Source: an uncultured Lachnospiraceae bacterium
GTDB taxonomy: Bacteria > Bacillota > Clostridia > Lachnospirales > Anaerotignaceae
DNA: 64,000 nt
NCBI GenBank assembly: GCA_944383855.1
Contig: CALWRB010000054.1
Location: 1-64,000 of the forward strand
Direction of reading: 5' to 3'
The notes under the pieces were generated by a model, which had not been told where the DNA came from, did no database searches, and saw only the letters and a list, made by a program, of their open reading frames with translations. Both the position numbers and the translations under genes were made by a program. Of this stretch, positions 24,119-28,857 are shown in pieces (positions within the stretch are counted from its first letter, which is position 1; each line of letters starts with the position of its first letter).

Positions 24119-24170
24119 TATAGTAGAAAACAGATAAAAAGCACAAGAAACGGAAAGAGGTGTGGTGAGA

Positions 24171-24383
24171 ATGAAAAAGACATTGTTTTCTGAAGAACAA
24201 AGAGAAATGTTAGGGATCAGCTATTGGTTTTTGAATCAGATGCATGATGATACAGAGAACGATGCGGGACAGAAGCAAAGGGATATCTTGGATTTTCTTA
24301 CCACGTTATTTGAGGATGCGATAGAGCCGGAAGATATGATCGAAATGCTGCGGGGATTTTCCGCGGAATATGGCATCGCATAA
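24171..24383 (+). CDS. Small acidic protein of unknown function
   Basis: A 70-residue acidic protein that I do not recognise. It has no predicted membrane segment or signal peptide and is mostly helical in appearance, with YWFLNQMHDDTENDAGQK in the middle and a C-terminal FLTTLFEDAIEPEDMIEMLR helix. AAAGAGGTG (24154-24162) lies 8 bases before the ATG at 24171 and a consensus-like promoter precedes it, so the gene looks genuine. A GTG at 24162 is in frame but overlaps the ribosome binding site. It is followed by the structured RNA candidate at 24407. Confidence 0.65.
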   Translation: MKKTLFSEEQREMLGISYWFLNQMHDDTENDAGQKQRDILDFLTTLFEDAIEPEDMIEMLRGFSAEYGIA

Positions 24384-24540: not shown

Positions 24541-24697
24541 ATGTTTTGCAGTATCCGAGAGAAAAAACCGCTTTTTTTCGAAGCGGCGAGGGCTTCTTAA
24601 AAACCGAATTTCTTTTATCTGCTTTTTATTTGGGAAAAAGCGGCAGACGGCTGATTTTTCCGAGCATCTTTTGTTTCAAAAACAGATTTTTGCACAA

Positions 24698-24730
24698 GGC
24701 ATACACGATGGAAGTGTATGCCTGTTTTTT
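24698..24730. terminator. Strong hairpin downstream of the minus-strand SOS gene
   Basis: GGCATACAC (24698-24706) and GTGTATGCC (24714-24722) form a perfect 9-bp stem, followed on the + strand by TGTTTTTT. It ends 14 bases from the stop of the minus-strand gene. The U-tract is better for + strand transcripts, but it may stop both. Confidence 0.65.
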
Positions 24731-24736
24731 ATGATG

Positions 24737-24997
24737 TCATATTTTTTTCAGCAGCCATTTTTGACTGTTGCAATGGTAGGAGAGTTCAAACAGCTTTTCT
24801 TCTCTGCCGCACAGAGTGCTGCATCGAAACAAAAGAATAGGAGAGCCTCCGAAAAAATGCGTTTCGGTGCGCAAAACTTTTCCGACTTTTACCACGACAG
24901 GTTGCCCGTTTTGTTCCATGCGGAAGCGAACAGGGGTCACATTGCCGTCTTTGGAAGTCCAAGAGATCATATCGATTTGTTGATTGAGCAGCTTCAT
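24737..24997 (-). CDS. Conserved small protein of unknown function with SOS-type promoter
   Basis: An 86-residue protein beginning MKLLNQQIDMISWTSKDG. It appears to be all-beta (alternating hydrophobic strands, for example NVTPVRFRM and LLFRCSTL) and contains no catalytic motif I can name. Similar small proteins occur in Clostridia, but I recall no function. GGAGGTG (complement of 25003-25009) lies 5 bases before the ATG. A longer open frame extends upstream to 25228 but crosses the promoter and is rejected. Its promoter contains a LexA-like box, so induction by DNA damage is predicted. Confidence 0.75.
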   Translation of the reverse strand: MKLLNQQIDMISWTSKDGNVTPVRFRMEQNGQPVVVKVGKVLRTETHFFGGSPILLFRCSTLCGREEKLFELSYHCNSQKWLLKKI

Positions 24998-25025
24998 AAA
25001 ATCACCTCCGTCTAAACTTGTCTTT

Positions 25026-25054
25026 ATTATATACGAACAAATGTTCTTTTTCAA
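25026..25054 (-). promoter_or_regulatory. SOS promoter with LexA (DinR) box
   Basis: On the minus strand, TTGAAA (complement of 25049-25054), a 17-base spacer and TATAAT (complement of 25026-25031). The spacer contains GAACAAATGTTC (25035-25046), matching the Bacillota LexA half-sites GAAC-N4-GTTC; with flanks it reads CGAACAAATGTTCT on the + strand. A repressor here would cover both promoter elements. Confidence 0.8.
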
Positions 25055-25534: not shown

Positions 25535-26221
25535 ATGTTTGCGCAGGATAAACGCATCCGTATCATTACGGGGCATTACGGCAGCGGGAAAACGGAATTT
25601 GCCGTCAACTATGCCGAAAAGCTTCGCCAGAGTCTGCCGCCGGAACGGAAGGTAGCATTGGCAGATCTGGATATTGTAAATGTATATTTTCGCTCCAGAC
25701 AAAAGCAGGATGAGATGCAGCAAATGGGAATTTTGGTGATTGCTTCTTCCATTCAAGGGGATAGCGCGGATTTGCCAGCGGTTTCTGCGGCAATGACCAT
25801 GCCGGTCAATGACCGTTCCTACGATTATGTGGTGGATCTTGGCGGCAATGATGTGGGGACGCTGGTTTTGGGGCGGATGACCCCTTTGCTTAAGGAAGAA
25901 GAAACTGATTTTTTCATGGTAGTAAATGTGTATCGTCCGGATACAGCCACACCGGAGGGCGTGATCGAGCAGATGCGTTCACTGGAACGTGGAGCCGGAC
26001 TGAAAGTAACCGGCTTGATCAATAATACCAATTTGGTACGGGAAACAACAGCGGCATGCTTGCGGCACGGAGATGATGTACTGAAAGAAGTCACTGCGCG
26101 TACGGGTGTGCCGGTGAGGTATATCAGTTATGTAGAGGAATTGTTGCAGGAAGAACTGCCAGAGGGATTGAGTGGAGAATGGTTCCCGATGCAGTATCAC
26201 ATGAGAGAATCTTGGATGTGA
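25535..26221 (+). CDS. P-loop ATPase linked to the 2-oxoacid:ferredoxin oxidoreductase operon
   Basis: A 228-residue nucleotide-binding protein of the MinD/CobB-like P-loop group. Walker A is GHYGSGKT (about 13-20); VALADLDIVN follows as the likely switch strand, and VVDLGGNDVG resembles the Walker B/switch II region. AAGGAGG (25521-25527) lies 7 bases before the ATG at 25535, so the in-frame TTG-proximal start at 25508 is rejected. It precedes the ferredoxin subunit by 36 bases with no terminator. Its role is unknown; assembly, cofactor loading or regulation of the oxidoreductase are inferences from linkage. Confidence 0.8.
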   Translation: MFAQDKRIRIITGHYGSGKTEFAVNYAEKLRQSLPPERKVALADLDIVNVYFRSRQKQDEMQQMGILVIASSIQGDSADLPAVSAAMTMPVNDRSYDYVVDLGGNDVGTLVLGRMTPLLKEEETDFFMVVNVYRPDTATPEGVIEQMRSLERGAGLKVTGLINNTNLVRETTAACLRHGDDVLKEVTARTGVPVRYISYVEELLQEELPEGLSGEWFPMQYHMRESWM

Positions 26222-26257
26222 ACGCTTGTTTTTTAGGATGTTTTGGAGGTGCGTCAA

Positions 26258-26470
26258 ATGGCAAAAGGAAAAGTAACGATCAATGAGGACATCTGCAAAG
26301 GCTGCGGGCTTTGTGTTTCTGTATGCCCCAAACAGGTGTTGGAACTTTCTAAAACAAAAATCAATGCGTCCGGCTATAATCCCGCGGAAGCGGTGAATGA
26401 CGAGTGCATTGCCTGCACAAGCTGTGCAAAGATGTGTCCCGACTGTGCAATCACAGTGGAGCGGTTTTAA
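26258..26470 (+). CDS. 2[4Fe-4S] ferredoxin subunit of 2-oxoacid:ferredoxin oxidoreductase (delta)
   Basis: A 70-residue electron-transfer subunit. Two clusters are bound by CKGCGLCVSVCP (about 13-24) and CIACTSCAKMCP (about 50-61), the classic CxxCxxCxxxCP pair. GGAGGT (26245-26250) precedes the ATG at 26258 by 7 bases. It is followed at once by the alpha, beta and gamma subunits, the usual order of four-subunit VOR/KOR enzymes, and probably carries electrons to free ferredoxin. Confidence 0.92.
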   Translation: MAKGKVTINEDICKGCGLCVSVCPKQVLELSKTKINASGYNPAEAVNDECIACTSCAKMCPDCAITVERF

Positions 26471-26487
26471 GTGAGGAGGGGATTTTC

Positions 26488-27546
26488 ATGGCAAAAGTGT
26501 TGATGAAAGGCAATGAAGCGATCGGTAAAGCTGCGATCGAAGCCGGCTGCAGATATTTTTTCGGCTACCCTATTACGCCGCAGAGCGAATTGCCGGAGTA
26601 TTTATCCAGCGAACTGCCGAAAGTAGGCGGTATGTTTGTGCAGGCGGAGTCTGAGGTCAGTGCGATCAATATGGTATACGGTGCAGCCGCTGCGGGGGCG
26701 AGAGTTTTGACCAGTTCATCTTCTCCCGGTATCGCTTTGAAACAGGAGGGGATCGGCTATATCACCAATGCAAGCCTGCCTGCGGTCATCGTGAACATGA
26801 TGCGTGGCGGTCCCGGGCTTGGTACCATTCAGCCGGGTCAGGCGGACTATCATATGACAGTAAAAGGCGGCTCCAACGGAGATTATCAGAATATCGTTGT
26901 AGCACCTGCTTCCGTGCAGGAGGCTGTGGATATGGTGATGGAAGCTTTTGATTTGGCGGACCATTACCGCGTGCCTGTAATCGTTTTGGCGGACGGATTG
27001 ATCGGACAGATGATGGAGCCTGTTGAGTTTCATTATGTTCCGAAGTGGGACCTGCCGGAAAAAGATTGGGCGCTCAGAGGAAAAGGCGACGGCGAAAAGC
27101 ACATGGTGGAAAACCTTGTGATGGAAGCCAGAGAGTGCGAAGAATGGAATCTGGCGCATTATCGGGTATATCGAAAAATCGAGGAACAGGAACAGGACTG
27201 GGAAGAATATAAATTGGAAGATGCCGAGTATGCGTTTGTGGCATATGGCACGGTATCCAGAATCGTAAAATCCGCAATCTCGCAGCTGCGGGAAGAAGGA
27301 TATAAAATTGGTTTGATTCGTCCCAAAAAGCTTTGGCCGTTTCCGCAAAAGGCATTTGACCGCTGGGATGGACAGATCAAAAAATACCTGGATGTGGAAA
27401 TGAGCATGGGTCAGATGGTACAGGATGTTGCCTATGCGTGCAACGATAAACATAAAATCGAATTTTACGGCAGAACCGGCGGTATCGTTCCCGGTGTGGA
27501 AGAAATCGTTGTATTCGCCAAAAAAATCATGGGAGGTGACAAGTAA
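26488..27546 (+). CDS. vorB: 2-oxoacid:ferredoxin oxidoreductase alpha subunit (VorB/KorA-like)
   Basis: A 352-residue subunit carrying the pyrimidine-binding and transketolase C-terminal domains. FFGYPITPQSELPEYL (about 21-36), the EVSAINMVYGAAAAGAR region and MMRGGPGLGTIQPGQADY are typical of the 3-methyl-2-oxobutanoate:ferredoxin oxidoreductase VorB group; 2-oxoglutarate is the main alternative substrate. GAGGAGG precedes the ATG at 26488. An in-frame extension to 26404 overlaps the ferredoxin gene and is rejected. The stop overlaps the beta subunit start by 1 base. Confidence 0.9.
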   Translation: MAKVLMKGNEAIGKAAIEAGCRYFFGYPITPQSELPEYLSSELPKVGGMFVQAESEVSAINMVYGAAAAGARVLTSSSSPGIALKQEGIGYITNASLPAVIVNMMRGGPGLGTIQPGQADYHMTVKGGSNGDYQNIVVAPASVQEAVDMVMEAFDLADHYRVPVIVLADGLIGQMMEPVEFHYVPKWDLPEKDWALRGKGDGEKHMVENLVMEARECEEWNLAHYRVYRKIEEQEQDWEEYKLEDAEYAFVAYGTVSRIVKSAISQLREEGYKIGLIRPKKLWPFPQKAFDRWDGQIKKYLDVEMSMGQMVQDVAYACNDKHKIEFYGRTGGIVPGVEEIVVFAKKIMGGDK

Positions 27547-28298
27547 TGGCTGTTGTGTTTGAGAAAACAAAAGCTTTGACAGACCTGAAGATGCATTATT
27601 GTCCCGGCTGTGCGCATGGTATCGTGCATAGACTTTTGGCGGAATGTCTGGAAGAAAGCGGAGATGTAAAAGATGCCATTGTTGCCGTTCCGGTAGGCTG
27701 TGCCGTGTTTGCGAATAAATATTTTAATTTTGACGGGATCCAGTGTGCGCATGGTCGTGCACCTGCTACGGCGACAGGCGTGAAGCGTGTGCAGAAGGAT
27801 AAAATTGTCATTACCTATCAGGGAGATGGCGACCTTGCCTCTATTGGTACCTGTGAGATCGTTCACGCAGCGGCAAGAGGAGAAAAAATCACCACTATTT
27901 TTATCAATAACGGTATATATGGTATGACAGGCGGACAGATGGCACCGACGACACTGCCGGGTATGAAAGCGACTACGGCGAAAAACGGACGTGATCCCGC
28001 GGTCAATGGCTTCCCGCTTCGTGTCAGTGAGATGCTTGCGACATTGGACGGTCCTGCCTATATTGAGCGTGTCAGCGTATCTACGCCCGCACAGGTGACG
28101 CAGGCGAAAAAAGCGATCCAAAAAGCGTTGGAAATTCAGAAAAAAGGTCTGGGCTTCACATTTATCGAAGTCGTTTCCAGCTGCCCGACCAACTGGGGCA
28201 TGACACCGGTCAAAGCAATGGAATTTGTCAGAGAAAAAATGATTCCCTATTATCCTCTTGGCGTTTATAAAGATATTACAGCAGAGGGGGGCAAATGA
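27546..28298 (+). CDS. 2-oxoacid:ferredoxin oxidoreductase beta subunit (thiamine diphosphate binding)
   Basis: A 250-residue subunit. YCPGCAHGIVHR (about 18-29) is the cluster/cofactor-near signature and GDGDLASIGTCEIVHAAARG with ITTIFINNGIYGMTGGQ is the thiamine diphosphate-binding region. It overlaps the alpha subunit by 1 base (TAATG) and the gamma subunit begins 2 bases after its stop, so the three are tightly coupled. It decarboxylates branched 2-oxoacids or 2-oxoglutarate to the acyl-CoA, passing electrons to ferredoxin. Confidence 0.92.
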   Translation: MAVVFEKTKALTDLKMHYCPGCAHGIVHRLLAECLEESGDVKDAIVAVPVGCAVFANKYFNFDGIQCAHGRAPATATGVKRVQKDKIVITYQGDGDLASIGTCEIVHAAARGEKITTIFINNGIYGMTGGQMAPTTLPGMKATTAKNGRDPAVNGFPLRVSEMLATLDGPAYIERVSVSTPAQVTQAKKAIQKALEIQKKGLGFTFIEVVSSCPTNWGMTPVKAMEFVREKMIPYYPLGVYKDITAEGGK

Positions 28299-28299
28299 T

Positions 28300-28857
28300 A
28301 TGAGTACACAGAAAATTTGTTGTGCGGGTTTTGGCGGACAAGGCGCACTTTCCTTAGGTAAAATTTTGGCATATGCAGCCATGCTGGAGGGAAAAGAAGT
28401 TTCATGGTGCCCTTCTTATGGACCGGAAATGCGCGGCGGTACGGCAAACTGCCACGTGATTGTATCAGACGAAGCGATCGGTTCTCCTGTGATCGCGGAA
28501 AACGCTGCTTGCTTGATTGCGATGAATCAGCCGTCTTTGGATAAATTTCAGGATATTATCGCAGACGGTGGTGTGATCGTGCTCAATTCCGATTTGGCGC
28601 AGCTGCATGGCAGCGCAAAAACGGATAAGATTTATGCGGTACCTGCCAATACCATGGCGCAGAATGCATTCGGCAGCGCGAAGCTTGCCAATATTATTTT
28701 ACTGGGGGCAGTGGTACAGTCTGTGGGCGTAGTACGAACGGAAAGCATTGAAGAAGCGTTTGCACAAGTGTTTGGCGGCGCAAAGGAAAAATTTATTCCG
28801 GATAATAAAAAAGCATTTGCTTTGGGTTATACTTTTGCAAAAGGAGAACATGCATAA
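28300..28857 (+). CDS. 2-oxoacid:ferredoxin oxidoreductase gamma subunit
   Basis: A 185-residue subunit of the pyruvate ferredoxin oxidoreductase gamma family. CCAGFGGQGALSLGKILAYA (about 6-25) and SWCPSYGPEMRGGTANC (about 36-52) are the family signatures. GAGGGGGG precedes the ATG at 28300; an in-frame ATG at 28258 lies inside the beta gene. It closes the operon ATPase-ferredoxin-alpha-beta-gamma, followed by a terminator. Confidence 0.92.
   Translation: MSTQKICCAGFGGQGALSLGKILAYAAMLEGKEVSWCPSYGPEMRGGTANCHVIVSDEAIGSPVIAENAACLIAMNQPSLDKFQDIIADGGVIVLNSDLAQLHGSAKTDKIYAVPANTMAQNAFGSAKLANIILLGAVVQSVGVVRTESIEEAFAQVFGGAKEKFIPDNKKAFALGYTFAKGEHA

Follow-up and report, generated by a model that had tools for sequence, protein, structure and literature searches.

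The 64,000-nucleotide stretch of DNA analysed here (the window), from a gut-type Clostridia genome, carries on its minus strand an uncharacterised gene of 86 codons, and a preliminary description had placed a LexA-type SOS box within its promoter. We asked whether this gene is indeed under LexA control and, if so, what its small product might do in the SOS response. The features of the locus are the following.

24737-24997, minus strand: 86-codon gene encoding a predicted all-beta protein of an uncatalogued clostridial SOS family (open reading frame and ribosome site)
25003-25010 (approximate), minus strand: ribosome-binding site GGAGGTGA, just 5' of the ATG (sequence)
25026-25031, minus strand: -10 hexamer TATAAT (sequence)
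25035-25046 (25034-25046 with the outer base), minus strand: putative LexA operator GAACATTTGTTC (sequence; position kept in 21 sister promoters; same operator at recA and lexA)
25049-25054, minus strand: -35 hexamer TTGAAA (sequence)
24697-24723, plus strand: hairpin resembling a terminator, opposite to the gene and just past its 3' end (consensus match only)

The anatomy described earlier, TTGAAA-N17-TATAAT with a GAAC-N4-GTTC dyad before the minus-strand gene, proved exact. The frame opens with an ATG at 24997 and ends at 24737, and GAACATTTGTTCG lies inside the promoter, 49 nt 5' of the gene. The 17-nt spacer reads AAGAACATTTGTTCGTA on the minus strand, while the dyad read on the plus strand is C-GAACAAATGTTC. 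A perfect GAAC-N4-GTTC in this spacer is placed to block the promoter, as expected of a LexA-regulon member, and resembles the LexA (DinR) regulon of Bacillota, where the same operator, as at recA, overlaps the promoter. We did not find the small gene named in published accounts of that regulon. Next to it lie hflX and a cluster of ATPase and 2-oxoacid oxidoreductase genes, with no Y-family polymerase gene adjacent. Two further observations were made around it: a 73-codon open reading frame without Pfam or NCBIfam match lies between hflX and the 86-codon gene (24162-24383, plus strand), and at 25544-28857 (plus strand) a MinD/CbiA-like ATPase gene, whose match scores under Pfam's cut-off, stands directly 5' of the ferredoxin and 2-oxoacid:ferredoxin oxidoreductase cluster.

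The motif match alone is not significant, considering that about one per 64 kb is expected by chance and that the genome shows no excess. The window holds 1 copy of GAACNNNNGTTC against 0.87 expected, and at least one copy appeared in 59 of 100 shuffles of the window. Pattern searches over the whole genome returned 12 sites versus 26 for the reversed control pattern; most of the 12 fall within long open frames. Among those located 5' of plausible gene starts are the sites of the 86-codon gene and of recA, and one next to a gene for an S24-type repressor. What makes the operator significant is its placement and its conservation.

We therefore compared the promoters of the same gene across the Anaerotignum family, in which 22 of 58 genomes encode the protein; 21 of these 22 promoters were read. 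The dyad sits between the -35 and -10 elements in every one of them, and 20 fit the TTGA..-N17-[-10] arrangement exactly. GAAC-N4-GTTC is perfect in 17 of the 21 sister promoters, with one mismatch in 2 and two mismatches in 2, so that the expectation that homologues would keep the box was borne out; 27 of 28 stand-alone homologues elsewhere keep it too. The half-site columns carry 2.0, 2.0, 2.0, 1.39 and 1.71, 2.0, 2.0, 1.53 bits, against 0.64-0.95 bits for the four central bases and 0.56-0.77 bits just 3' of the dyad. In these columns, near-fixed half-sites surround a drifting centre, as is typical of a bound dyad. The worst boxes at the small gene belong to G014 and G016, which also lack a perfect recA box; no dinB-type match was obtained in either genome, and yet both keep the small gene. 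Their degenerate boxes count as one event because the two are close relatives, and this branch (L043, L072, L089; L040, L071) suggests a joint erosion of SOS control.

The second line of evidence comes from known SOS genes. In the genome of the window, a perfect box, GAACGTAAGTTCG, lies shortly before the start of recA, a gene preceded by AGAACGTAAGTTCG. The upstream region of lexA, on the same contig, contains AGAACACGTTTTCC, CGAACATATATTCC and CGAACATAGGTTTG, all a few hundred nucleotides before the lexA start and all differing from the core at a single position. Results were similar in the family: a perfect recA box is present in 20 of the 22 genomes carrying the small gene, and lexA, found in 21 of the 22, always has at least one upstream site with 0-1 mismatch. 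The Bacillus motif is one that LexA of Clostridia is known to recognise (PMC8457756). The idea that the known SOS genes of the genome carry the same box thus held for recA and lexA and failed for dinB: neither the dinB-type nor the UmuC-like genes of this genome have a box, whereas dinB boxes are present in many other Clostridia. More generally, the polymerase genes examined in the Anaerotignum family lack a convincing box and do not adjoin the small gene. Near-boxes AGAACAATTTTTCA before dinB in this family were rejected because they are the first dinB codons (ATG AGA ACA ATT TTT CAT), conserved as protein. We also noticed, near a contig start (L058, G000:C50), a UmuC-like polymerase gene followed by a YolD-like open reading frame, with no LexA box in the 196 upstream bases available. 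Upstream of lexA (L080), a LysM-type gene whose product is similar to the division inhibitor YneA is apparently divergent from lexA, the boxed region being common to both, an arrangement described for Bacillus and Clostridium thermocellum (PMC8457756).

Taken together, conservation and the common operator at recA and lexA support the claim of a LexA-type SOS box in this promoter, and SOS control of the 86-codon gene is well supported by comparison of sequences.

We then looked at the wider distribution of the protein, which a profile search found in 73 of 391 sampled Clostridia and in 45 of 398 sampled members of the phylum. At 55 of 88 loci the small gene comes immediately after a full Y-family polymerase gene in the same orientation, and at 5 more it follows a polymerase gene cut by a contig end or flank, while the remaining 28 copies are stand-alone. 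About 60 of 88 relatives therefore adjoin a Y-family polymerase gene, unlike the locus in the window. The tight order of dinB then small gene is repeated over many clostridial families, and in many Clostridia the two appear to be co-transcribed. The box follows this organisation: for stand-alone homologues in other Clostridia, a perfect box lies no more than 350 nt away in 27 of 28 cases, and polymerase-linked homologues have one before the polymerase in 36 of 55, some of the rest having flanks too short to show it. The relevant promoter stretches, 34.7 kb in all, contain 64 perfect boxes versus 6 in the other ~397 kb of homologue loci, whereas the control pattern CTTGN4CAAG gave 9 matches in these loci with 1 inside the promoter stretches. 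Chance appears excluded in practice by such a concentration, for which we claim no P-value because the species are not independent.

One lineage is organised differently. Genomes of family f89 (L252 and L255 of G598; L261 of G449) contain as many as six small-gene copies. Some of these lie just behind a gene that by eye resembles a DNA adenine methyltransferase, and none of the 10 copies read is near a Y-family polymerase gene. A perfect LexA box shortly before the adenine-methyltransferase-like gene was seen once in that lineage, at L252. Considering that these relatives follow an adenine-methyltransferase-like gene, the partner may vary.

What kind of protein is encoded? Searches of Pfam, NCBIfam, PHROGs and PDB sequences gave no convincing match. 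The AlphaFold prediction, made with high confidence, is all-beta, with seven strands and no helix (pLDDT 93); W81 and K85 are invariant in alignment A3, and R or K is common at positions 24-26. Foldseek revealed no clearly similar solved structure (best E-value 0.1), and the adhiron/cystatin scaffold, the best VIA-align hit (Z 6.5), was taken as a common arrangement and not as kinship. A more informative result came from hhalign, in which the broad family alignment was compared with an alignment of fetched DUF6504 (PF20114) proteins: the two aligned over their full length with probability 90 and P 1.7e-6, against P 0.15-0.81 for ten column-shuffled controls and one reversed control. Length is similar, and the alignment shows a common P..F core and a W-x-L-Y-K type ending. 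On the other hand, hmmscan of 31 family members with E up to 10 gave no Pfam match, so that no small-protein member reaches PF20114 even at E = 10. The kinship with DUF6504 is likely but distant, because the narrower alignment A2 reached only 32% probability. DUF6504 was not detected in the genome of the window (G000) or in the same-order and same-class genomes listed, and none of the 12 DUF6504 loci fetched has a LexA box in a comparable position.

DUF6504 is probably the published ImuB-C superfamily, whose members are beta-only, have a conserved C-terminal Trp and, when standalone, are mostly found beside DinB (PMC3765255). By this route the small-protein family would be a clostridial ImuB-C-like group or a close sister of it. 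Like ImuB-C, the small protein is predicted to be beta-only, with a conserved C-terminal Trp and positive residues; it is SOS-linked, and its relatives mostly stand beside a DinB/YqjH-type polymerase. It differs in that its sequence is too divergent for library matches, no ImuB, ImuA or DnaE2 context was seen for the gene, and the Anaerotignum-family gene stands apart from the polymerase gene with its own LexA promoter. YolD/YqjX (PF08863), the UmuD analogue of Bacillota, is likewise a small beta protein with a link to SOS and a Y-family polymerase as its partner, but the 86-residue protein has no Pfam match to it, and the genome of the window has a separate YolD-like open reading frame adjoining its UmuC-like gene.

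We propose that the gene probably encodes a LexA-repressed accessory subunit of translesion polymerases, separated from dinB in the Anaerotignum family. In the undamaged cell, LexA bound to the dyad between the -35 and -10 elements would block RNA polymerase; RecA filaments on single-stranded DNA would then stimulate LexA self-cleavage, and the gene would be turned on together with recA and lexA. Repression and release are here drawn from established SOS biology. As an accessory subunit, the small beta product would bind a Y-family polymerase or help to place it where the DNA is damaged, perhaps together with RecA, and would most likely aid this error-prone enzyme in copying damaged templates, a role suggested by the linkage with dinB elsewhere and by the distant profile kinship. 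For the Anaerotignum family the partnership is proposed by analogy, as its polymerase genes are without convincing box and not adjacent; there the gene would form a separate one-gene SOS unit, and may thus act in trans on DinB, the UmuC-like polymerase or something else.

The same control is compatible with a different product. It is possible, although on balance we doubt it, that the protein works as a general SOS factor (a beta protein that binds DNA or RecA, for instance) and that co-transcription with dinB is a regulatory convenience. The frequency of stand-alone copies, the unboxed polymerase genes of the Anaerotignum family, the retention of the gene in G014 and G016 without a dinB-type match and the copies behind an adenine-methyltransferase-like gene all fit such a factor; the repeated dinB-then-small-gene order across many clostridial families and the distant kinship to ImuB-C, which appears as part of polymerase complexes in published models (PMC12926913), argue against it. 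In a slightly more tentative variant, the family would be a free-standing SOS effector and not a fixed polymerase subunit, aimed at one shared target (RecA filaments or damaged DNA, for instance) and deployable alone (Anaerotignum family), with dinB or behind the methyltransferase-like gene; this reading is kept alive by the one multi-copy lineage in which the small gene follows that gene.

It is very unlikely that the operator is read by a different repressor of similar specificity to LexA, for instance one from a prophage or of the S24 type. Candidates for such a regulator do exist in the genome, as contig C18 has an S24-type repressor gene beside a perfect box and C20 a second weak LexA-DNA-binding match, but throughout the family the chromosomal recA and lexA genes have the box too, and a canonical lexA is present in almost all of these genomes. 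The C18 site merits a description of its own: the perfect box CGAACTAATGTTC (G000:C18:21638-21650; L001/L025) is flanked by the S24-type repressor gene on one side and by a divergent phage-like gene on the other, in a region adjoining a terminase-small-subunit-like open reading frame, and the locus is a probable prophage tied to the SOS response. Lastly, a chance palindrome in a sigma-70 promoter, although compatible with the background frequency of the motif and the missing genome-wide excess, is extremely improbable given the conserved register, the half-sites of 1.4-2.0 bits versus a centre of 0.6-1.0, the boxed stand-alone homologues outside the family and the shared operator of recA and lexA.

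The gene had been put forward as a new member of the SOS response; LexA control is well supported by comparison, while the gene is not a one-off, as its relatives make up an SOS family of Clostridia with ties to Y-family polymerases. A LexA-controlled polymerase partner is, moreover, an already known sort of protein, because published work describes ImuB-C as a beta protein that stands beside DinB and is coupled to the YqjH polymerases of Clostridia (PMC3765255; PMC6511836; PMC12926913), a coupling first noted here from a report of 2019. Among such partners of error-prone polymerases, the gene would be a new, unnamed member.

In conclusion, the SOS response gains, with strong comparative support, a widespread unnamed protein family, and the small gene offers a tractable route to what ImuB-C-like small subunits do. 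In the Anaerotignum family, where the small gene would be SOS-controlled and dinB apparently is not, the two functions would be genetically separated.
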